DNA of 64,000 nt, taken from assembly GCA_023664305.1 (NCBI GenBank), contig JAMPFT010000002.1, positions 1 to 64,000 of the forward strand, given 5' to 3'. Below are positions 50,961 to 60,796 of the stretch, piece by piece. Every line of letters starts with the position of its first letter. The first letter of the stretch is position 1. The notes beneath the pieces were generated by a model. It saw nothing but the letters and a program-made list of their open reading frames with translations. It was not told where the DNA came from and made no database searches. A program made the translations under genes and the position numbers. Source of the stretch: a bacterium (GTDB taxonomy: Bacteria > Bacillota > Clostridia > Lachnospirales > Lachnospiraceae).

Positions 50961-51023
50961 GAGAGCCATTGGCTTGTGGAAAGGGCCGGTTCGGCTGTGC
51001 GGGAGAATTAAAATATTTGTCAT

Positions 51024-51066
51024 GAAGAGAGGTTCCTCTGCAAAAAGCGGAGGGGCTTCTTTTTTT
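51024..51066 (+). terminator. Terminator of guaB
   Basis: CCTCTGC pairs with GCGGAGG around AAAAA, flanked by GAAG/CTTC and followed by T7. Confidence 0.85.
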
Positions 51067-51096
51067 GCGCTGATTTGGAGCCGGAGAAGAATCCTG

Positions 51097-51127
51097 TTGA
51101 CAAGAAACGTTCGGGGGGGGGTAGAAT
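51097..51127 (+). promoter_or_regulatory. Promoter with a nine-G spacer tract before the SPFH gene
   Basis: TTGACA at 51097-51102 and TAGAAT at 51122-51127 are 19 bases apart; a run of nine G residues (51113-51121) directly precedes the -10. Loss of two G would give the optimal 17. A start codon at 51129 would fall inside this promoter, which supports translation from 51162. Confidence 0.6.
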
Positions 51128-51161
51128 TATGTCATTAAAGCGATACGAGGGGGAAACGGAT

Positions 51162-52451
51162 ATGGCAAAAATTGCGGAAGTCATTAAGTATGAGGGGGAT
51201 AACTCGACCTTTGTCTGGAAGCATCCCAGTGAGGATTTTAACTCGCTGAGCCAGCTTGTGGTACATGAGAATCAGGAAGCGCTGTTTATGATGAACGGGC
51301 AGGCGCTGGATCTTTTCGGGCCGGGCAGATACACCCTGGAGACGGAAAATATACCGCTGATCGGCAGGCTCTTTCATCTGGTGACCGGAGGCGTCTCCCC
51401 CTTTCACTGCGAGGTCTACTTTATCAACAAGACGGAGCAGATGTCGGTCAAATGGGGGACGGACAGCAAGGTACAGTTTCTGGAGCCTGTCTACCGGTTT
51501 CCTATGGAGATCGGCGCCTGCGGGGAGATGAGCTTGAAGGCTGAGGATTCCAGGAGGCTCTGTCTGAAGCTGGTAGGGACGGAGGATATTCTCGACCAGT
51601 CCAGGCTGACCCGGTATTTCAGGGGATTTCTGATGACGAGGATCAAGTCCTGTCTGGCGAGGACGATCCGGGAGCAGTCCCTCAATATTTTCGAGCTGGA
51701 CGAGCATCTGGACGAGCTTTCCGGCGCGTTGCGGGAACTGCTTGCGCCGGATTTCGCGGAATACGGGGTAGCGCTGGAGCATTTTTTCGTAACTACCGTC
51801 ATGCGGCCGGAGGGGGATGAGACCTACGAACGCTTTAAGAACCTTCATTTCCGGCAGTATGCGGATGTGGCGGAGGCGAGACTGAGCCAGCAGGTAGACA
51901 TCATCAAGCAGCAGACGGAGGCGCAAAAGATCATTATCGAGTCCCAGGCCCTCGCGCAGAAGCGGCTGCAGGAAGGCTACACCTACGCTCAGGAGCGCAG
52001 CTTCGATGTGGCGGGAGCGGCGGCAGCGAACGAGGGAATGGGACAGTATACAAACCTGGGCGTGGGTCTGGCAACCATGGCGGGCGTAGGAAATACGGTC
52101 GGAGGGATGTTCCGGGACGCCCTGGCTGGGGCGGGAACGACGGCGCAGGGAATGCCGCCCCAGACCGGGAACGGGCAGCTTCAGGGGATGCCCCGGGAAG
52201 AAGGCGGGCAATTCCAGGGGATGCAGCAGTCTGGAGGCGAACGGGTTTCGGGGATGCCGCCCCAGTCCGGGAACGAACAGCCGCAGGGAGACGGGATAAT
52301 CTGCGGACAGTGCGGTCATATCGTCCCGCAAGGGTTTAAATTCTGCCCGGAGTGCGGGGCGAAGGTACAACAGGCGCCAACTGTCTGCCCGAAATGCGGG
52401 AGTGATGTGACAGGGTTCAAATTTTGCCCGGAATGCGGTGAGAGGTTATGA
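51162..52451 (+). CDS. SPFH-domain protein with C-terminal double zinc ribbons
   Basis: A 429-residue protein with a beta-rich SPFH-type domain (about residues 15-240; MMNGQALDLFGPGRYTLET), a coiled-coil segment (ARLSQQVDIIKQQTEAQKII), a glycine/alanine stretch, a Gln/Gly/Pro-rich linker with GMPPQ repeats and two CxxC zinc ribbons at the C-terminus (ICGQCGH...FCPECG and VCPKCG...FCPECG). The start at 51162 is chosen from GAGGGGG 9 bases upstream. SPFH proteins scaffold membranes as oligomeric rings; this version lacks an N-terminal membrane anchor. It leads a five-gene unit with a TIR protein. Function in this context is unknown. Confidence 0.83.
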   Translation: MAKIAEVIKYEGDNSTFVWKHPSEDFNSLSQLVVHENQEALFMMNGQALDLFGPGRYTLETENIPLIGRLFHLVTGGVSPFHCEVYFINKTEQMSVKWGTDSKVQFLEPVYRFPMEIGACGEMSLKAEDSRRLCLKLVGTEDILDQSRLTRYFRGFLMTRIKSCLARTIREQSLNIFELDEHLDELSGALRELLAPDFAEYGVALEHFFVTTVMRPEGDETYERFKNLHFRQYADVAEARLSQQVDIIKQQTEAQKIIIESQALAQKRLQEGYTYAQERSFDVAGAAAANEGMGQYTNLGVGLATMAGVGNTVGGMFRDALAGAGTTAQGMPPQTGNGQLQGMPREEGGQFQGMQQSGGERVSGMPPQSGNEQPQGDGIICGQCGHIVPQGFKFCPECGAKVQQAPTVCPKCGSDVTGFKFCPECGERL

Positions 52452-52471
52452 GCGAGGGAAGGAGTACAAGG

Positions 52472-53173
52472 ATGGAAAAATATCAAAAAAGTTATCGGAT
52501 CGCCTGGGGGATCGCCGTTGTCCTGTTTGTGGGGACGGCGCTTCTGATTCCAAACGAAATCGGGAGCTGGAGCAAAAACGAGGGCTCCTTCTGGGCGGCA
52601 TTTGTCATGATTTTACTGGTGTTCGCGGGGCAGCTGGGCTGCAGCGCTTTCCTCTTCCGCAAGGCGGATCCCGGGCGGAGGTTCCTGCAGCTTCCGATTG
52701 TTTCTGTGAGCTATCTGGCCCTTCTGATTACGCTGATTGTGGAAATTGTCTGTGTAGTCGTCCCGACGACGAAAAACTGGCTGGGCTTTGCCCTGGGATT
52801 TCTGATCCTTGCCTGCTACGGCATCGCCGTAGCGGCGTCGGTCTCCGGGGCGAAGATAATCGAGGAAAAGGAGCGGGAGCGGAAGGAGGAGACAAGGTTT
52901 CTGTACGCCCTGCGGACAGAGGCAGAGCTTCTGTTAAAGCAGACGGAGAATCCGAAAATTGCTCCCATCGTAAAGAAGGTGAGCGAAGCGGTACGTTACA
53001 GCGATCCCCGCGGCAACGCGGCTCTCGAGGAGCTGGAGGGGCGGCTGTACGTTACCTTTGCGGCATTTTCCGAGGCGGCACAGACGGGGGATGAAGCTTC
53101 CTGCGGTGAGAAGGCGGAGACGTTTTTGAAGCTTCTGGAGGAAAGGAACAGTAAATGCAGGCTGTTGAAATAG
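52472..53173 (+). CDS. Membrane protein with cytoplasmic coiled-coil tail
   Basis: A 233-residue protein with four hydrophobic helices (about residues 8-30, 40-62, 75-98 and 105-130) and a charged helical tail (EEKERERKEETRFLYALRTE and after). AAGGAG lies 7 bases before the ATG at 52472; an in-frame ATG at 52448 overlaps the preceding stop. No family recognised. Encoded between the SPFH and zinc-ribbon proteins, so it is probably a membrane partner. Confidence 0.72.
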   Translation: MEKYQKSYRIAWGIAVVLFVGTALLIPNEIGSWSKNEGSFWAAFVMILLVFAGQLGCSAFLFRKADPGRRFLQLPIVSVSYLALLITLIVEIVCVVVPTTKNWLGFALGFLILACYGIAVAASVSGAKIIEEKERERKEETRFLYALRTEAELLLKQTENPKIAPIVKKVSEAVRYSDPRGNAALEELEGRLYVTFAAFSEAAQTGDEASCGEKAETFLKLLEERNSKCRLLK

Positions 53174-53197
53174 GCTGCGCGGAGGGGAGGAAAAGAC

Positions 53198-53743
53198 ATG
53201 GTATGCCAATACTGCGGAGCGCAGGTTGAAGATGAGACGCTGGCCGTCTACTGTAAAAAGTGCGGAAAGAAGCTGATCAGGGAGGAGACCGGTCAGGAGG
53301 CGGAAGGGCCGGAGGACGGGAAATCGAAAACCGGCCGTAAAAAATGGTACTTAGCCGCGGCGGGAGGAGCGATTCTTCTGATCGCCGTGATTGTGCTTCT
53401 TGTAGTAATGCAGGGTCCCGGCGCTTTTCGGAATCCAGAGGGCGGGACGGCGGGGAGCCGGACGGAAGCGGAGACGGAGCTGTACGGGGAATGGTCGGAC
53501 GAGAACGGTCTGCTGTCCATGACCTTCCGGGAGGACGGCACGGTGCGCATCGGAGCCGGTTCCGGTTTCCTGGGGGCCGATTTGTTTACCTTTACCGAGG
53601 AGGGCGGCGATACCCTGTACCTGAAGGCACAGGCGGATGGTCTGCTGGGGGATCTGCTGTCCCTGCAGATAGATTATGAGATGCAGGGGGACGAGATGAG
53701 GGTGTCCTTTCTGGGAATGGAATATTTTTTGAAGCGCAAATAA
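53198..53743 (+). CDS. Zinc-ribbon membrane protein
   Basis: A 181-residue protein: an N-terminal zinc ribbon (CQYCG...CKKCG, residues 3-22), a charged linker, one membrane helix (about residues 51-71) and a C-terminal beta-rich domain (YGEWSDENGLLSMTF) like lipocalin-type DUFs seen in clostridial surface proteins. GGGGAGG precedes the ATG. The zinc ribbon would be cytoplasmic and the beta domain outside. Its zinc ribbon resembles those of the SPFH and TIR proteins on either side. Confidence 0.75.
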   Translation: MVCQYCGAQVEDETLAVYCKKCGKKLIREETGQEAEGPEDGKSKTGRKKWYLAAAGGAILLIAVIVLLVVMQGPGAFRNPEGGTAGSRTEAETELYGEWSDENGLLSMTFREDGTVRIGAGSGFLGADLFTFTEEGGDTLYLKAQADGLLGDLLSLQIDYEMQGDEMRVSFLGMEYFLKRK

Positions 53744-53767
53744 CAAAAGCGGAGAGGGGATAGTAAA

Positions 53768-56700
53768 ATGGCTGTTTTTAAATGTAAGATGTGCGGCGGA
53801 AACCTTGAGGTACAGGAGGGGATGAGCATCTGTGAATGCGAATACTGCGGGACGAAGCAGACCCTGCCGAAGATGAACGATCAGCGCCGGGCCAACCTGT
53901 ACGACCGGGCGAATCATTTCCGCCGGAATAACGAGTTCGACAAGGCGATGTCCATGTATGAGCAGATTCTGGAGGAGGATCGGGAGGACGCGGAGGCGTA
54001 CTGGTCGCTGGTGCTCTGTACCTACGGGATCGAATATGTGGAGGATCCGACGGATCACACGAGAAAGCCCACCGTAAACAGAACCCAGTATACCTCGGTC
54101 TTTGCGGATGAAAATTATAAGGCGGCCCTGAAATACGCCGACGAGAAGCAGAGACAGCTCTACGAGGCGGAGGCGAGGCAGATCGACGGCATCCAGAAAG
54201 GGATCCTCGATATTTCCAGTCAGGAGGAGCCCTTTGACGTCTTTATCTGCTATAAGGAGACGGATGCCGCGGGCCAGAGAACCCAGGACTCCGTCCTGGC
54301 GAATGATCTCTACCATCAGCTGACCCAGGAGGGCTTTAAGGTGTTTTTTGCCCGGATTACTCTGGAAGATAAGCTGGGCAGCGCGTACGAGCCCTATATT
54401 TTCGCGGCCTTGAACAGCGCGAAGGTGATGGTCGTATTGGGCACGAAGCCGGAATATTTTAACGCGGTTTGGGTCAGGAACGAATGGAGCAGGTACTTAA
54501 GCCTGATCAAGGGCGGCGCGAAGAAGGTGTTAATTCCCGCCTACAAGGATATGGATCCCTATGACCTGCCCCAGGAATTTTCCCATCTGCAGTCTCAGGA
54601 TATGGGCAAGCTGGGCTTTATGCAGGATCTGATTCGGGGAATCCGGAAGCTGACAGGGGCGGATCAGGCGAAGCAGACCGCCGCCGCGGCCTCCGGGACG
54701 CCCGGGAACGAGACGGCGGCGCTCTTAAAGAGAGCCTTTCTGTTCCTGGAGGACGGGGATTTCGCGAAGGGGGATGAGTACTGCGAGCGCGTGCTGAACC
54801 TGGATCCGGAGAGCGGGGAAGCGTATCTTGGAAAGCTGATGGCGCAGCTGAAGATACGGAAGCGGGAGGGACTGGCACAAAACCCGAATACTCTGGAGCA
54901 GGAAGACGCCTACCAGAAGGTCATGCGCTTTGGCGGGGACGCCGTCAAAAAAGAGCTGGAGGGCTATAATCAGCAGATCCGCAAGCGCCTGCAGGAGCAA
55001 CAGGAAAAGCAGCGGGAGGACTCTTATCAGGGAGCGCTGAAGCTGCTGGAGTCGGCGGTAAAGAGCAGCCAGATTCAGGAGGGAATCAACCGACTGAAGC
55101 TCCTGGGAGGTTATAAGGACACGGCGGAAAGACTCGCGGCGGCCGCAGAGAAGCTGGCTCAGCTGGAGAAGAAGGAGCGGGAAGAGAGGAAGAAGCGGCA
55201 GAGGAAGGCGACAAGGATTGGAATCGTTCTGGCGGCGGCTGTGGTTGTTGTGGCGGTTATTGCTTCCGCGGCAGTGAAGAGAAATCAGTATAACCAGGCG
55301 GTTCAGGCGGCGGAGAGCCTGCTGCAGGCGGGGGACTATGACGGTGCTTACCGGCAGTTTGCGGATTTGACAGGGGAGGAGAAGGCGAAGGAAGAAGTTG
55401 CTAAGGCGATGGGGGATGTGGCGGAGAAAGCCGTGGAGGAAGGAGAATACAGAAGGGTTTTCGAGCTGCTGAGAGGAATGAGTTCATATGCGAATGATCC
55501 GGAGGAAGAGGCGACGCGGTTGGGGAATGCCATGTTTCAGTCGGCGCAGGAGTATGTAAGGCAGGGGGTATATGATAAGGCGGACGAATTACTTTCCTCT
55601 ATTGAAGCGTTGCCGGGCGGGGCGGACGTTACGGAGGCAGCAGCCCGGCTGGGAAGCGCACTGTATCAGGCCGCGCAGGAACATACCAGCGCCGGGGAAT
55701 ATGAGAAAGCGGAGGAGCTGCTGGCTGTGATCGGGAAGCTGCCGGAAAGTACAGATACGGTGGAGGCGGCTACGCAGTTCGGCAACGGAATATACCAGGC
55801 TGCGCTGCAATATGTAAATGCAAAAGAATACGCTAAGGTGAGCGAACCGCTTGTCTTGCTTGAGAAGATACCGGTTGCCATAGACACGTCAGAAGCGGCG
55901 GCACAGCTAAGCAATGCCATGTATCAAATGGCGCAGGAAGATGCCGACGCGGGGGAATCTGCTTCCGCGAAGCAGCTGCTCCGTGAGATAGGAAAGCTGC
56001 CTGGTACCGCAGACAGGTCGGAGGCGGCCACCCGGTTTGCAGACGCTATGTATCTGGCGGTACAGCAGTGTGTAAGCTTGGAAGAGTATGCGAGGGTAGA
56101 TGAATTGTTCTCGCTAATCGGAGAAATTCCAGATACGGTAAAGAGGTCGGAAGAAGGTGCGCGATTGGCGGAGATTATCTATCGTACAACGCTGAATTAT
56201 CTGAAAGAAAATCAAAATGAAAAAGCGGAGGCACCCTACGCCTTGATGGAACAGGAAGCTATGGCAGCTTATCGGATCCCGATAGAGGATACGAAAGTCG
56301 AATTGGCGAGAGCGTCGGTGGGGAAAAAGGTTTCCTTTGGACACACAGGCGAGTATGGGAGTTCTTGCACTGTTGTTGAAAGAAATGAAAACGGCGAAGT
56401 GCTTCTTTATTGGAAGCATTATGATTCTTTCTCCATCAATGCGTTTCAGTCTTCCTGGAAAGATTCTTTTATCCGAAAATGGCTTAATACAGATTATCTG
56501 AAGGAACACTTTAGCGCGGAGGAGCAAGCGCTGATTTTGACTAAGACGATACAAAATGAAAGTTTTCAGATAGATGCGGAATATCATGTGGTGGACGAGG
56601 ATAATATCTGGAATGTCAGGCAGGAACTGGAGACAACAGAGGATAAGCTGTTTTTGCCGTTATTGTCGGATGCATGGCTTGATACATTTAATAAATGGAA

Positions 56701-56962
56701 GGAGAATAAAAACATTGCTTTATGGCAAGCTCCTGTTGGCTTTTATAGAAGCAGTGGAAATGTTGATTCCTTTGAAACACTTCTGTATCATGACGATCAT
56801 ACTGGCCGTGCAAAGAATAAGATTTCGGGTCTTTACTACCTAACGAAGGAATATCCTGGCCTTTGGGGTACAATAGATAGCACAGAATCAGTGGACGGCG
56901 GCAGTGGATTAAAAGTGGAGGGGATTATGGTTTATTTTTGGGTCAATCCCTATGCGGAATAA
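53768..56962 (+). CDS. 1064-residue zinc-ribbon/TPR/TIR/membrane/repeat protein with DUF6273-like end
   Basis: Domains in order: zinc ribbon (CKMCG and CEYCG, residues 6-28), TPR-like helices (40-150), a TIR domain (155-295; EEPFDVFICYKETD, then AVWVRNEW), TPR-like helices (315-470), a membrane helix (483-502), a partial repeat, five 43-residue helical repeats (585-799) and a beta-rich DUF6273-like domain (about 850-1060; WLNTDYLKEHFSAEEQ). TIR residues Trp235 and Glu239 form the WxxxE pattern, so the NADase glutamate appears present. Thus TIR and zinc ribbon are cytoplasmic and the repeats outside. Similar TIR N-termini are widespread in Clostridia without known role. A defence or membrane-sensing function is plausible. 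Confidence 0.8.
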   Translation: MAVFKCKMCGGNLEVQEGMSICECEYCGTKQTLPKMNDQRRANLYDRANHFRRNNEFDKAMSMYEQILEEDREDAEAYWSLVLCTYGIEYVEDPTDHTRKPTVNRTQYTSVFADENYKAALKYADEKQRQLYEAEARQIDGIQKGILDISSQEEPFDVFICYKETDAAGQRTQDSVLANDLYHQLTQEGFKVFFARITLEDKLGSAYEPYIFAALNSAKVMVVLGTKPEYFNAVWVRNEWSRYLSLIKGGAKKVLIPAYKDMDPYDLPQEFSHLQSQDMGKLGFMQDLIRGIRKLTGADQAKQTAAAASGTPGNETAALLKRAFLFLEDGDFAKGDEYCERVLNLDPESGEAYLGKLMAQLKIRKREGLAQNPNTLEQEDAYQKVMRFGGDAVKKELEGYNQQIRKRLQEQQEKQREDSYQGALKLLESAVKSSQIQEGINRLKLLGGYKDTAERLAAAAEKLAQLEKKEREERKKRQRKATRIGIVLAAAVVVVAVIASAAVKRNQYNQAVQAAESLLQAGDYDGAYRQFADLTGEEKAKEEVAKAMGDVAEKAVEEGEYRRVFELLRGMSSYANDPEEEATRLGNAMFQSAQEYVRQGVYDKADELLSSIEALPGGADVTEAAARLGSALYQAAQEHTSAGEYEKAEELLAVIGKLPESTDTVEAATQFGNGIYQAALQYVNAKEYAKVSEPLVLLEKIPVAIDTSEAAAQLSNAMYQMAQEDADAGESASAKQLLREIGKLPGTADRSEAATRFADAMYLAVQQCVSLEEYARVDELFSLIGEIPDTVKRSEEGARLAEIIYRTTLNYLKENQNEKAEAPYALMEQEAMAAYRIPIEDTKVELARASVGKKVSFGHTGEYGSSCTVVERNENGEVLLYWKHYDSFSINAFQSSWKDSFIRKWLNTDYLKEHFSAEEQALILTKTIQNESFQIDAEYHVVDEDNIWNVRQELETTEDKLFLPLLSDAWLDTFNKWKENKNIALWQAPVGFYRSSGNVDSFETLLYHDDHTGRAKNKISGLYYLTKEYPGLWGTIDSTESVDGGSGLKVEGIMVYFWVNPYAE

Positions 56963-57020
56963 CGATAATTACAGGAGATAAAAGTCAGAAAACATTACGG
57001 ATAAAGAAAAGGAGAATCTT

Positions 57021-57530
57021 ATGGACGATCGACAGAAGCAGCTGATGGATTTCCTGGAGAAGATTGGAGAAGCGCAGGAGAAGAAGCGTAACAAAAAGCA
57101 GAAAACGGAGAGTATCGTTGACGGCGGAAAACAGATCGAAGAGCTGCTGAGGGTGGAGGGTCTGATACCGAGGGAATCGGAAATTGAACTGACCGAGCCG
57201 GAAATCGAGAAGCTGAAGGACGCCTGCCTGAAGCTGCGGGAGGATGGCGTAGAGACCATCAATGTAAGTACGGCGTTAAATGCGCTGTGTGTTTCCGTGC
57301 TATCATTGATTTTGTCAGCGTCGGCAACTGTGATGTCGCTGGTAAAGGACGTACACATTTCCTACTTGTTTGTAGCTGTATTTGCCGGGCTGTCGATTGT
57401 GGCAATCATCGGAATCGTATTTGCTCTGTTCCTTTTCTGTGGCAGGATAAAAGGAAATGCAAAACGGGCTGATCGCTACCGAAATGCCTATATTGAGCTG
57501 AGCCTTATGCAGAAAAATACTGCTGTATAA
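57021..57530 (+). CDS. Small membrane protein with coiled-coil N-terminus
   Basis: A 169-residue protein with a charged helical N-terminal half (about residues 1-80, QKQLMDFLEKIGEAQEKKRN) and two hydrophobic helices (about 90-110 and 115-140). AAAGGAGAA precedes the ATG. Last gene of the SPFH-TIR unit. No family recognised. Confidence 0.7.
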   Translation: MDDRQKQLMDFLEKIGEAQEKKRNKKQKTESIVDGGKQIEELLRVEGLIPRESEIELTEPEIEKLKDACLKLREDGVETINVSTALNALCVSVLSLILSASATVMSLVKDVHISYLFVAVFAGLSIVAIIGIVFALFLFCGRIKGNAKRADRYRNAYIELSLMQKNTAV

Positions 57531-57566
57531 CGCGCCCCAAAAGCGGCCGCACAGATGGAAAAACAG

Positions 57567-57595
57567 CAGGGGAGCTGGCATTGCCGGTTCCCCTG
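57567..57595 (+). terminator. Hairpin after the SPFH-TIR unit
   Basis: CAGGGGA and TCCCCTG flank GGC/GCC. The T-run is missing, so efficiency is uncertain. Confidence 0.45.
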
Positions 57596-57786
57596 AAAAT
57601 ATGCCCTTAAGTCACATGGGTTTTCACTATATTACATGCTGTTTCGGATTCCCTTAACAGTGATTTTAGTGATGGGAAAAAGGAGTTTGTCAAAGGGGGT
57701 GCGTCCGGTCGATCAACAGAAAATACGACATAAAAATATGACAAAAAAACGACAAAAGAATATAAATAATTATTTCCGGAAATGTA

Positions 57787-57815
57787 TTGTCAACATTCGG
57801 ACGATCTGTTATAAT
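57787..57815 (+). promoter_or_regulatory. Promoter of the heptad-repeat protein gene
   Basis: TTGTCA at 57787-57792 and a perfect TATAAT at 57810-57815 are 17 bases apart, with T-rich sequence after. The 450-base spacer 57531-57982 holds no other recognisable gene; the short open frame within is A/T-rich and lysine-rich without a ribosome-binding site. Confidence 0.75.
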
Positions 57816-57982
57816 TTTTTTAAGCATAATTCTTTGAACAAACATCTTTTATTCTATCAGAATCTATCTGTATGGTCTCAACGAATTCTATGCTTTTCAT
57901 CACATTATTTTAAACAGGCATAGGGTCGGAGAGGCAGAAGCCGTTCAGGTGTCTTTTGCGTACCCTATGGAAAAGGAGGTAC

Positions 57983-58519
57983 ATGAAGGAAGACGGAAAA
58001 AAAGATCGACGCTCAAAAGGCAAAGAGGCCGTAACGAGGGTCATCGGGGAACAGGAAAGAGAATTTGACAGAAGGGAGATTGCTATGACAGACAGTGAAA
58101 AATTGGATCAGATATTGAAGGCGATGAGTGCTTTGGACGGGAAGGTGAACGCCCTGGATGAGAAGGTGAATGCTTTGGACGGGAAAGTGAACGCTCTGGA
58201 TGAGAAGGTGAACGCTTTGGACGGGAAGGTGAACGCTTTGGACGGGAAAGTGAACGCCCTGGATGAGAAGGTGAATACTCTTGACAGGAAGGTAAATGCC
58301 CTTGGTATAGAGCTAAAGGAGGTAAAACAGAAGGTAGTCAAGACGGAAGTGATCGTTGAAAATGAGATTCGCGTGAATATCATGCGTGTAGCGGAAGGGC
58401 ATTTCGACTTGTCGAGAAAGCTGAATGAATGTATTCGGATCTCCGGCGAAATTAAGGATAAACAGGAGATACAGGATATTTTTATCAATATGCACGAAAA
58501 TCGGTTGAAGGCTTTGTGA
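57983..58519 (+). CDS. Heptad-repeat coiled-coil protein
   Basis: A 178-residue protein with a basic N-terminus, then eight near-identical heptads (ALDGKVN, ALDEKVN; one TLDRKVN) and a long amphipathic helix to the C-terminus. This is a parallel coiled-coil stalk. AGGAGGT lies immediately before the ATG at 57983; the ATG at 58085 with GGGAG 6 bases upstream is an alternative start and would lose the basic segment. No membrane helix. Function unknown; such proteins occur as phage-, sporulation- or cell-division-associated coils, but nothing here decides. Confidence 0.72.
   Translation: MKEDGKKDRRSKGKEAVTRVIGEQEREFDRREIAMTDSEKLDQILKAMSALDGKVNALDEKVNALDGKVNALDEKVNALDGKVNALDGKVNALDEKVNTLDRKVNALGIELKEVKQKVVKTEVIVENEIRVNIMRVAEGHFDLSRKLNECIRISGEIKDKQEIQDIFINMHENRLKAL
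58130..58297 (+). repeat. Eight 21-base tandem repeats encoding heptads
   Basis: Units of 21 bases (GCTTTGGACGGGAAGGTGAA and variants) encode ALDxKVN eight times. High identity suggests recent expansion and possible copy-number variation. Confidence 0.9.
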
Positions 58520-58535
58520 TATGCTCGCATGCCTC

Positions 58536-58564
58536 TTGCGTTTTCCGAAAAAAGAGTGTAAGAT
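58536..58564 (+). promoter_or_regulatory. Promoter of the ZTP-riboswitch transcript
   Basis: TTGCGT at 58536-58541 and TAAGAT at 58559-58564 have a 17-base spacer. Transcription would start at about 58571, the exact 5' edge of the riboswitch. Confidence 0.65.
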
Positions 58565-58570
58565 ATTGTC

Positions 58571-58648
58571 AACGGCTGCATGACTGGCGGAAGTAGGAGC
58601 ACCTACGGGGAGTGTGGCAGAAGAAGATAAGCCGACCGCCTGGGCACC
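58571..58648 (+). promoter_or_regulatory. ZTP (pfl) riboswitch aptamer
   Basis: P1 is CGGCT (58573-58577) with AGCCG (58630-58634). The family hallmarks are visible: TGACTGGCG after the first strand and the 3' ACCGCCTGGGCA (58635-58646) that forms the pseudoknot and ligand pocket. ZTP/ZMP binding would report low 10-formyl-tetrahydrofolate. It is followed by a terminator and by the two last enzymes of IMP synthesis. Confidence 0.92.
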
Positions 58649-58679
58649 ACCTGAATTTGTGATGCTCAGGCGGTCTTTT
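58634..58679 (+). terminator. Riboswitch-controlled terminator
   Basis: GACCGCCTG (58634-58642) pairs with CAGGCGGTC (58667-58675), then TTTT. Its 5' arm reuses the aptamer pseudoknot strand, so ligand binding should prevent termination. Confidence 0.85.
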
Positions 58680-58766
58680 GCGCGAATCAGCAGACTCTGC
58701 TGATTCCGAACCGGCGGAGCCCCGAAAAGCAGGGGAGTCTGCCGCTCTCAGAAGAGGAGGAGAAGA

Positions 58767-59474
58767 ATGTTACAACTGGATCAGGAACTGAAAAACAACG
58801 AGTACCCCGGGCGTGGGATTGTGATCGGGCGTTCGGAGGACGGTAAGTACGCGGTGACGGCGTATTTTATCATGGGGAGGAGCTCCAACAGCAGAAACCG
58901 TGTCTTTGTGACGGAAGGAGAAGGAATCCGCACCCAGGCTTTTGATCTTTCGAAGCTGGAGGATCCCAGTCTGGTCATTTATGCGCCGGTGCGTGTATTG
59001 GGGAGCCGGACGATCGTGACGAACGGCGACCAGACGGATACGGTATACGACGGACTGCAAAGCGGACTGACCTTTGAACAGGCGCTTGGAAGCAGAGAGT
59101 TTGAGCCGGACGGCCCTAATTACACTCCCAGGATTTCGGGACTTTTGCATGTGGAAAAAGGCAGCTATGATTTTTCCATGTCAATCTTAAAGAGCAACGG
59201 AGGGGATCCTTCCTGCTGTAACCGATATACCTTTACCTATGATCATCCGGCGGCGGGGGAGGGAAGGTTTCTCCATACTTACATGCATGACGGAAATCCG
59301 CTGCCGAGCTTCGAGGGAGAGCCGAAGCGGGTAAGGCTTTGGGGGGATATCGACAGCTTTACGCAGACAGTCTGGGAGAGCTTAAATCAGGACAACAAGG
59401 TATCGCTTTTTGTGCGGTATATTGAGATCGGGACAGGGGAGTACGAGACACGGATTTGCAACAAGAACCGGTAA
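58767..59474 (+). CDS. IMP cyclohydrolase (PurO-like)
   Basis: A 235-residue enzyme that closes FAICAR to IMP. It belongs to the IMP_cyclohyd family, better known from archaea (PurO), and not to the N-terminal half of bifunctional PurH. Motifs: NNEYPGRGIVIG near the start, then TYDNGD-like 'IVTNGDQTDTV' and PNYTPRISG. GAGGAGGAG precedes the ATG. It lies directly after the ZTP riboswitch. The last codons and the stop belong to a 54-base tandem repeat. Confidence 0.88.
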   Translation: MLQLDQELKNNEYPGRGIVIGRSEDGKYAVTAYFIMGRSSNSRNRVFVTEGEGIRTQAFDLSKLEDPSLVIYAPVRVLGSRTIVTNGDQTDTVYDGLQSGLTFEQALGSREFEPDGPNYTPRISGLLHVEKGSYDFSMSILKSNGGDPSCCNRYTFTYDHPAAGEGRFLHTYMHDGNPLPSFEGEPKRVRLWGDIDSFTQTVWESLNQDNKVSLFVRYIEIGTGEYETRICNKNR

Positions 59475-59601
59475 ATTGACATTGCGGAAAGAAACAGAGA
59501 ATGATGAATTTGCAACAAGAATCGGTAAACTGACATTGCGGAAAGAAGCAGAGAATGATGAATTTGCAACAAGAACCGGTAAATTGACATTGCTGAAAAA
59601 G
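59454..59601 (+). repeat. 54-base tandem repeat across the cyclohydrolase stop codon
   Basis: Copies begin at 59454, 59508 and 59562, each starting ATTTGCAACAAGAA; the third is truncated. The first copy contains the last codons and stop of the cyclohydrolase gene. Each unit carries TTGACA. Confidence 0.9.
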
Positions 59602-59617
59602 AAAGGAACAGAAAACC

Positions 59618-60796
59618 ATGAAAGAGATCGAACTGAAATACGGGTGTAACCCGAACCAGAAGCCTTCCCGGATTTTTATGGAGGACGGCAGCGAGCTGCC
59701 GGTAACCGTGCTCAACGGCAGGCCCGGCTATATTAACTTTCTGGACGCTTTTAACGGCTGGCAGCTGGTGAAGGAGCTGAAGGAGGCTACAGGACTTCCC
59801 GCGGCGACTTCTTTCAAGCATGTGTCTCCTGCGGGAGCGGCGGTAGGGCTTCCCCTGGACGAAACACTGGCGAAGATTTACTGGGTGGACGACCTGGGGG
59901 AGCTTTCCCCGTTGGCCTGTGCTTACGCAAGGGCGAGGGGCGCGGACAGAATGTCTTCCTTCGGAGATTTTATCGCGTTGTCCGACACCTGTGACAGGGA
60001 TACTGCGCGGCTGATCAAGAGAGAGGTTTCCGACGGCGTTATCGCGCCTGACTTTACCGAGGAGGCGCTGGCAATTTTAAAAACAAAAAAGAACGGAAAT
60101 TATAATGTGATCAGGATGGACGCTTCTTACACGCCTGCCTCCGTAGAAAAAAAGCAGGTTTACGGAATTACCTTTGAGCAGGGAAGAAACGAACTGGATG
60201 TTGACGGCGGCCTGCTTTCCAATATCGTCACCGTAAGCAAAGAGATTCCAAAGGAGGCGCTGATCGATATGAAGATCGCGCTGATCACCCTGAAGTATAC
60301 GCAGTCAAACTCGGTCTGCTATGTAAAGGGGGGGCAGGCGATCGGGATCGGAGCCGGTCAGCAGTCCCGCATCCACTGCACCAGGCTGGCGGGGCAGAAG
60401 GCGGATAACTGGTTCCTCCGTCAGTCCCCTCAGGTGATGGGATTGGATTTTCTGGAGGGACTGGGAAGGGCTGACAGGGACAACGCCATCGATGTCTACA
60501 TGGGCGATGAATGCATGGATATCCTGGCGGACGGCGCGTGGGAGAAGATTTTCAGGACGAAGCCGCCTGTGTTTGGCCGGGAAGAAAAACGCGCGTGGCT
60601 GGATCGTCTGCAGGACGTTACCCTGGGCTCCGACGCTTTCTTTCCTTTCTCCGACAATATCGAGAGAGCGCACAAGAGCGGCGTGAAATACATTGCCCAG
60701 CCGGGCGGCTCCGTCCGGGATGACGCCGTTATCGCATGCTGCGACAAGTATGATATGGTGATGGCTTTTACCGGGATCAGGCTGTTCCATCATTGA
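59618..60796 (+). CDS. AICAR transformylase (stand-alone PurH transformylase domain)
   Basis: A 392-residue enzyme that formylates AICAR with 10-formyl-tetrahydrofolate. Motifs of the PurH transformylase domain are present: KHVSPAGAAVG, the Lys in QSNSVCYVKGGQ, RIHCTRLAGQKAD and FFPFSDNIERA. The IMP cyclohydrolase domain of bifunctional PurH is absent and replaced by the preceding gene. AAAGGA precedes the ATG. Both genes sit behind the ZTP riboswitch, which senses the substrate that accumulates when this step lacks folate. Confidence 0.92.
   Translation: MKEIELKYGCNPNQKPSRIFMEDGSELPVTVLNGRPGYINFLDAFNGWQLVKELKEATGLPAATSFKHVSPAGAAVGLPLDETLAKIYWVDDLGELSPLACAYARARGADRMSSFGDFIALSDTCDRDTARLIKREVSDGVIAPDFTEEALAILKTKKNGNYNVIRMDASYTPASVEKKQVYGITFEQGRNELDVDGGLLSNIVTVSKEIPKEALIDMKIALITLKYTQSNSVCYVKGGQAIGIGAGQQSRIHCTRLAGQKADNWFLRQSPQVMGLDFLEGLGRADRDNAIDVYMGDECMDILADGAWEKIFRTKPPVFGREEKRAWLDRLQDVTLGSDAFFPFSDNIERAHKSGVKYIAQPGGSVRDDAVIACCDKYDMVMAFTGIRLFHH

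Follow-up and report, generated by a model that had tools for sequence, protein, structure and literature searches.

A candidate membrane surveillance system of Clostridia: TIR receptors with changing outer domains encoded beside an SPFH protein

What purpose is served by genes that place a TIR protein, apparently anchored in the membrane, beside an SPFH protein? The question is raised by the first 64,000 nucleotides (here called the window) of contig JAMPFT010000002.1, from a bacterium of the Lachnospiraceae (assembly GCA_023664305.1), where five co-directional genes lie at 51162-57530 on the + strand. A preliminary description read them as an undescribed five-gene system. All five genes are present, but their relatives indicate that the core consists of three genes only: an SPFH/zinc-ribbon gene, a gene for a four-helix membrane protein, and one or more zinc-ribbon/TPR/TIR genes. 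We give about an even chance to the proposal that this core encodes a membrane surveillance system, in which TIR receptors in an SPFH scaffold would sense an outside cue and cleave NAD+, most likely against phages or rivals.

The operon begins with gene 1 (51162..52451), which encodes a 429-residue SPFH protein, the predicted scaffold, with matches in Pfam to Band_7_1 (E 6.5e-38) and to a double zinc ribbon at its C-terminus; no membrane helix was detected in it. Gene 2 (52472..53173, 233 residues) encodes a four-helix membrane protein with a charged C-terminal tail, the predicted anchor of the SPFH protein, and has just one weak Pfam match, below cut-off. Gene 3 (53198..53743, 181 residues) occupies a variable slot and combines a zinc ribbon, one membrane helix and a beta-type domain; its Pfam matches, to a zinc ribbon and DUF5640, are all below cut-off. 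The receptor itself, of 1064 residues, is the product of gene 4 (53768..56962) and runs from zinc ribbon, TPR and TIR through a membrane helix to repeats and a DUF6273 domain, with TIR_2 (E 1.1e-11), DUF6273 (E 6.4e-9) and TPR above the Pfam cut-off. Gene 5 (57021..57530) encodes a two-helix membrane protein of 169 residues with weak Pfam matches only, all below cut-off. The preliminary description had placed and oriented the genes correctly, but two starts are shifted: gene 1 most likely begins at the ATG at 51162, not at 51097, because its homologues begin at the same point (...IKYEGDNSTF lies inside the first 17 residues), and gene 2, whose frame is open from 52448, most likely begins at 52472.

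The linkage of these genes was followed by scanning a genome collection with residues 1-331 of gene 4 (the module). The scan gave 434 confirmed relatives, and the best 80 of these (79 loci, 71-87% identity) were analysed as the closest relatives. With profiles built from the loci, an SPFH gene was seen in 59 of the 79. Linkage of the SPFH and TIR genes in other genomes, on which the preliminary description depended, was borne out: in the 52 loci whose upstream DNA extends for 4.5 kb or more, SPFH neighbours TIR in 40, the four-helix gene is present in 37, and both occur in 36. Two or more TIR-module genes stand in 26 of the 79 loci. By contrast with the core, genes 3 and 5 are barely conserved, with relatives (BLAST, E<=1e-4) in two (L005, L021) and one (L005) of the 79 loci, respectively. 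From 16 matching genomes of an even draw of Clostridia, 20 further regions were taken; SPFH stands beside TIR in 14 of these, and two of the remaining six (L256, L269) end at a contig edge upstream. The order SPFH, four-helix, TIR recurs in genomes of several families. Of the 391 evenly drawn Clostridia genomes, 21 (the window's own among them) have the module, as do 18 of 222 genera (E<=1e-20), so that its spread is patchy; among the nearest 61 genomes it is matched in seven (E<1e-100), all of which have an SPFH match as well (E<1e-60). At locus L114 (5652-8677) an SPFH gene is followed by a zinc-ribbon/membrane-helix/LRR protein without TIR, from which the SPFH scaffold may serve other receptors too.

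None of the five operon proteins passed a curated NCBIfam cut-off, and genes 1-4 had no PADLOC match at E<=0.1. That part of the claim to novelty stood; gene 5 has two weak PADLOC matches (E 0.016 and 0.02). No description of the system was found in the open-licence literature, most subscription papers lying outside that scope. This is a real conserved system with no match in the libraries searched, in which known parts are assembled in a new way. It seemingly represents an undescribed receptor family, patchy in Clostridia, that joins a near-constant inner TIR module to changing outer sensors.

Constancy of the inner module is evident from 103 aligned sequences. The N-terminal zinc ribbon of gene 4 (53768..53872) is formed by C6, C9, C24 and C27, kept in 102, 103, 103 and 103 of the 103, the single miss being a gap. 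The TIR domain (residues 153-296; 54224..54655) contains a W235-x3-E239 motif in which both W235 and the catalytic-type Glu E239 (codon 54482-54484) are invariant, so that the intact Glu of the preliminary description is a property of the whole alignment. This is the conserved catalytic Glu of the W-x3-E helix expected of NAD+-cleaving TIR enzymes, and we take it to be equivalent to SARM1 E642. The alignment thus indicates a module under strong constraint. When searched against PDB sequences, the TIR profile had a Toll-like-receptor TIR as its sole match at E<=1 (E 1e-5), and the full-length gene 4 profile found mainly TPR-type chains; a fold search with the full-length model likewise placed TPR-type and other helical-repeat chains among the best 50. 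Three more TIR_2 proteins are encoded in the window's genome (C42:138750, C11:242173 and C21:25487; loci L118-L120), and the SPFH, four-helix and TIR-module profiles had no match around them.

How the receptor sits in the membrane is suggested by charge. Its single membrane helix (residues 484-502; 55217..55273) is flanked by nine Lys/Arg on the N side and two on the C side, so that the charge rule predicts an N-in/C-out protein whose C-terminal part lies outside, the zinc ribbon and the TIR domain facing the cell interior, the arrangement put forward in the preliminary description. A strong helix follows the module in 78 of 96 proteins with a complete C-terminus, and in these 78 the N side is richer in Lys/Arg in 74, equal in one and poorer in three. 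Beyond the helix of the window receptor lie helical repeats, five of them with a spacing of about 43 residues (55265..56317), predicted to be outside, and then a C-type-lectin-like DUF6273 domain (56315..56959; Pfam match at residues 892-970), which lacks a WWLRSPG...VRPALW segment found in relatives. The last part of the gene 4 model has a predicted local distance difference test score (pLDDT) below 50; among solved structures, the one nearest to the tip is a DUF6273 domain from a gut IgA peptidase (PMC12402451). Relatives differ in this region: of 77 outer parts picked, one (L090) was dropped over its strand, and the 76 scanned carry DUF6273 (52), RCC1 (6), LRR_5 (4) or Flg_new/InlB-type domains (2), plus TPR families.

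Tandem receptors give a closer view of this variation. Across 28 pairs from 14 loci, the modules have a median identity of 62% and the remaining parts one of 26.5%, and some pairs combine near-identical modules with unlike ends (98/35, 95/14 and 88/22% for module/rest). Alike modules with unlike ends are the trace that exchange of sensors on a constant signalling part would leave, and the comparison indicates that C-terminal domains of binding type are exchangeable.

In a few relatives, the lectin-like tip is apparently rewritten, or was once rewritten, by a diversity-generating retroelement (DGR) comprising a reverse transcriptase, Avd and a template repeat. The clearest case is the intact element of locus L022, in a metagenome-assembled genome (MAG) of an uncultured Eubacterium sp. 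Behind the receptor gene of this locus (334-2823) come an Avd-like gene (DivGenRetAVD, E 1.3e-13; 51.2 bits, where the cut-off is 80), a template repeat in which 14 positions read Asn, and a 364-residue reverse transcriptase frame (RVT_1 above its cut-off at 72.4 bits); reverse transcriptase and Avd thus adjoin the target, as in DGRs. Over 120 nt of template and variable region, 21 of 21 differences fall on template adenines; a 123-nt stretch that extends beyond the end of the repeat has 22 on adenines and three others. Decayed pieces of such an element lie within 1.5 kb behind the receptors of L014 (Emergencia sp., not labelled MAG), L025, L031 and L043, making five of 79 loci with L022. An SPFH gene is present in these four; the L022 contig is cut off upstream, with 333 bases before the receptor. 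In genome G126, a second element set (L200) has 21 of 22 differences on adenines. It lies on a short contig starting just behind the helix position, and the TIR gene of the same genome, preceded by SPFH, four-helix and DUF4365 genes, is truncated where another contig ends; the two parts are likely one gene.

Codon usage in the tips agrees with this picture. The WWLRSPG...VRPALW frame occurs, with small variations, in the DUF6273 tips of 35 receptors. Where the L022 template reads Asn (14 columns), the third codon base is C/T in 89% and Lys/Gln/Glu/Met/Trp make up 6% (34 receptors), as against 48% and 26% in 43 variable control columns upstream in the same domain (entropy at least 2.3 bits; mean 2.7 versus 3.3); the overall third-base C/T of these receptor genes is 53%. 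Within the segment, C or T (about 76-97%) is also the ending at most of the fixed columns (Gly, Val, Ala, Pro and Arg), and the scarcity of Lys/Gln/Glu/Met/Trp is therefore the better half of this test.

Relatives of the L022 reverse transcriptase mostly lie apart from any TIR module. The L022 enzyme matches 34 of the 391 Clostridia genomes (E<=1e-20) and 10 of the 27 genomes of lectin-tip loci, where it adjoins the receptor solely in L014, L022, L025, L031 and L043; a search of 148 relatives of G126 (E<=1e-80) gave no new case of a DGR with a TIR gene. Two further loci, L201 and L203, have reverse transcriptases with DUF6273-like stretches close by, in genomes without a TIR-module match. A DGR acting on the window copy was considered and rejected: RVT_1 has no match in the window's genome, which is 94.6% complete so that a miss is possible, and the single DUF6273 of this genome lacks the WWLRSPG frame. 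The window copy is a plain, non-hypermutated member, and the striking features of the family are seen only with its relatives.

A different kind of variation is found in the slot between the four-helix (or SPFH) and TIR genes. The 40 same-strand open reading frames (ORFs) located there fall into 25 sequence clusters, and in several loci the TIR gene follows the four-helix gene with no ORF intervening. Excluding three members of the gene 3 cluster and four short ORFs of 60-101 residues, 33 were scanned. The matches (E<=0.01) included HEPN families, DUF4365, DUF2971, FRG, DUF4062 (weakly), DUF1413 and a TIR, and PADLOC matches (E<=0.001) were to ThsB, PDC-S15, PDC-S31, PDC-S66 and a restriction-enzyme model; several of the scanned ORFs match nothing. 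These are mostly, as we take them to be, domains of biological-conflict systems, and as such they support an immune reading.

The proposed surveillance system could operate as follows. The four-helix protein would hold the SPFH protein at the membrane, as YdjG and YdjH hold YdjI, and the SPFH protein would gather receptors in a patch, perhaps via their zinc ribbons. The outer domain would bind an outside cue (a phage particle, a rival cell or a damaged wall), and binding would cluster the TIR modules. We infer that the clustered modules would then cleave NAD+, with one of two outcomes: starvation of the cell, or production of a signal for the slot gene, which in relatives encodes HEPN, DUF4365 or other proteins. 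The likeliest purpose would be defence against phages or rivals. In the window copy, the sensor would stand on a long helical stalk without a hypermutated segment. A conflict role is supported by the slot genes and hypermutated tips, and a scaffold role of the SPFH protein by the need of YdjI for its membrane partners YdjG and YdjH (PMC8581546). A more specific version, which we offer tentatively and at somewhat less than an even chance, is that these are cell-surface innate immune receptors of gut Clostridia, Toll-like in topology and clustered by SPFH proteins, whose tandem paralogues would swap sensors and, in some lineages, have them hypermutated by a dedicated retroelement.

Comparison with described systems defines what is new. 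The pspA-ydjGHI operon of B. subtilis (PMC8581546, PMC11237479) shares a helix-free SPFH protein with a C-terminal zinc ribbon (present in gene 1), dependence on membrane partners, and zinc ribbons in one partner; in the window operon, the output place is taken instead by a TIR receptor with exchangeable outer domains. As judged by the charge rule, the receptor resembles animal Toll-like receptors in having a single membrane helix with TIR inside and a ligand domain outside, and four of the 76 relatives have an LRR outer domain, the window copy having DUF6273 only. Unlike Toll-like receptors, it has TIR first, an N-end zinc ribbon and TPR, mostly lectin-like tips, an NADase-type Glu and an SPFH partner; common descent as receptors is not claimed. 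A TIR domain with a conserved Glu is shared with Thoeris and other bacterial TIR anti-phage systems, and there is a weak ThcB4 match, but this reaches 26.9 bits against a cut-off of 220, gene 4 falls outside PADLOC at the threshold given above, its TIR is fused to a membrane receptor, and no ThsA-type effector family is found among the operon proteins.

Retroelement-diversified sensors have precedents. According to PMC10907252, DGRs rewrite putative antigen sensors in STAND and VMAP systems, some targets having TIR domains, and those systems likewise place a lectin-fold variable domain and a retroelement beside a putative conflict protein; they involve STAND or MoxR/vWA proteins in multicellular bacteria, whereas here a single-pass TIR receptor is combined with an SPFH scaffold in Clostridia. 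No STAND, MoxR or vWA protein was found in the window operon or among the three L022 proteins scanned, L022 having 333 bases of upstream DNA. Because TIR-linked, retroelement-diversified lectin sensors are known elsewhere (PMC10907252), we place the family among the TIR-based conflict systems, as a new form of these and not as something categorically new. Tentaclins, the receptor-binding proteins with DUF6273 that DGRs diversify in phages (PMC10743442), share the lectin-like variable domain, but theirs is on phage proteins and here it is on a bacterial TIR receptor. Among the matches listed for the L022 reverse transcriptase, the closest phage enzymes (45.6%) include that of nd12, a phage treated in PMC10743442 in which the DGR acts on DUF6273 proteins.

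Several observations weigh against an immune surveillance system. Enrichment in defence islands, raised in the preliminary description, found no support. The 136 nearest flanking genes were picked, two (the Avd and reverse-transcriptase stretch of L014) were dropped, and a distal set was taken from the same loci; both rarely match PADLOC and do not differ clearly (E<=1e-15: 31 families for 134 nearest genes versus 19 for 136 distal genes, counting members per model and not distinct proteins). Among the 25 of these 31 nearest families that were listed, most are AbiEi/AbiEii models with one member each. Searches of 72,556 plasmid records and 50,697 phage records gave no match to the module (E<=1e-5), and ordinary mobility is therefore not evident. 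Sixteen complete receptors have no helix signal and still carry DUF6273 (5), RCC1 (2), LRR (1) or MORN (1), so that such domains may also act inside, and Cys makes up 1.7% of outer parts versus 0.9% of the inner module minus its zinc ribbon (71 proteins). Ends are as alike as modules in four of the 28 tandem pairs. Neither SPFH nor the four-helix gene is found in 11 of the 52 loci, and five near genomes (G002, G003, G015, G021, G025) have SPFH without this TIR gene; in four of these, by our reading, a protein with a zinc-ribbon-like start follows, one of the four being the LRR protein of L114. Lastly, the TIR module is found in none of 20 regions around the best related reverse transcriptases, L200 alone showing the receptor's outer part.

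Some of these points favour an envelope-stress system like pspA-ydjGHI, in which the outer repeats would detect damage to the wall or membrane and a signal made by the TIR protein would lead to adjustment of both, with no immune role. The arrangement of YdjI (PMC8581546 and PMC11237479), the SPFH genes that accompany other zinc-ribbon-like proteins without TIR, and the flanks devoid of defence enrichment all suit it. It nevertheless appears unlikely: PspA and TPM have no match at E<=0.1 among the five operon proteins, swapped and hypermutated outer domains are ill-suited to a fixed stress signal, and neither the conflict-type slot domains nor the patchy presence is what it would lead one to expect.

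The lectin-like, LRR and InlB-type domains might instead bind mucus, host glycans or neighbours, with the TIR end signalling colonisation. Wherever a body site is stated for a relative, it is a gut site (caecum, colon, rectum, ileum, rumen, reticulum, faeces), although for a large number none is given; the LRR region of L032 is similar, below cut-off, to an LRR adhesin model; and the gut IgA peptidase structure (PMC12402451) fits as well. Against such a contact role are the effector-like slot genes (HEPN, DUF4365, FRG) and the presumable cost of an NADase-type TIR for mere adhesion sensing, and we consider it quite unlikely.

The TIR domain could also be a non-enzymatic adaptor that gathers proteins, the slot gene being the real effector. 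The TIR class of Toll-like receptors, known mostly as adaptors, supplied the sole PDB match, which speaks for this option; the Glu invariant in all 103 modules and the loci with an empty slot speak against it and make it improbable. Chance neighbours, each gene acting alone, would accommodate the poorly conserved genes 3 and 5 and the 11 loci without both partners, but the linkage in the 52-locus set and further regions already made this unlikely, and with the same gene order recurring across several families we give it hardly any weight.

The surroundings of the operon bear on its origin. Behind the upstream guaB gene lies a terminator-type hairpin with a T-rich 3' arm and tail (51024..51066, + strand; -26.3 kcal/mol, z -4.9), absent from the list of a simple terminator scan; this strong hairpin closes guaB, and the operon therefore starts on its own. 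Downstream, the operon's neighbour is a purO-type gene, a PurO-type IMP cyclohydrolase (PF07826) that together with a following 392-residue ORF, which reads like AICAR transformylase, occupies 58767-60796; a 187-residue protein with about 8-9 tandem heptad-type ALDxKVN coiled-coil repeats is encoded at 57956-58519. The purO neighbourhoods of 18 congeners were compared, and SPFH, four-helix and TIR have a match in none (E<=1e-6). In 13 of the 18, guaB and purO are on one stretch, and the interval between them (window 50961-58766) holds a sensor-like gene of 862-904 residues in nine, one of which has two more large ORFs there, just 115 bp in one, and smaller ORFs in three. Since these intervals lack the operon, it is probably not ancestral between guaB and purO; mobile-element ends were not sought. 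A viral contig of IMG/VR (L309, IMGVR_UViG_3300031555_010668) has SPFH, four-helix, slot and TIR genes behind genes that, by our reading, are lysin-, holin- and serine-recombinase-like, a site often used by phage-borne defence genes, and L008 has the same lectin-tip segment as L309.

The bacterial TIR systems known so far detect phage mostly from within the cell. If the surveillance proposal is true, the family would be a bacterial counterpart of Toll-like receptors, reading the cell exterior via a single helix and a TIR module, with tips that can be exchanged and are in some cases hypermutated. SPFH proteins would thereby gain a defined part in immunity, and DUF6273 lectin-like domains a link to immune sensing; in the more specific version given above, the family would amount to a repertoire of bacterial immune receptors on the cell surface.

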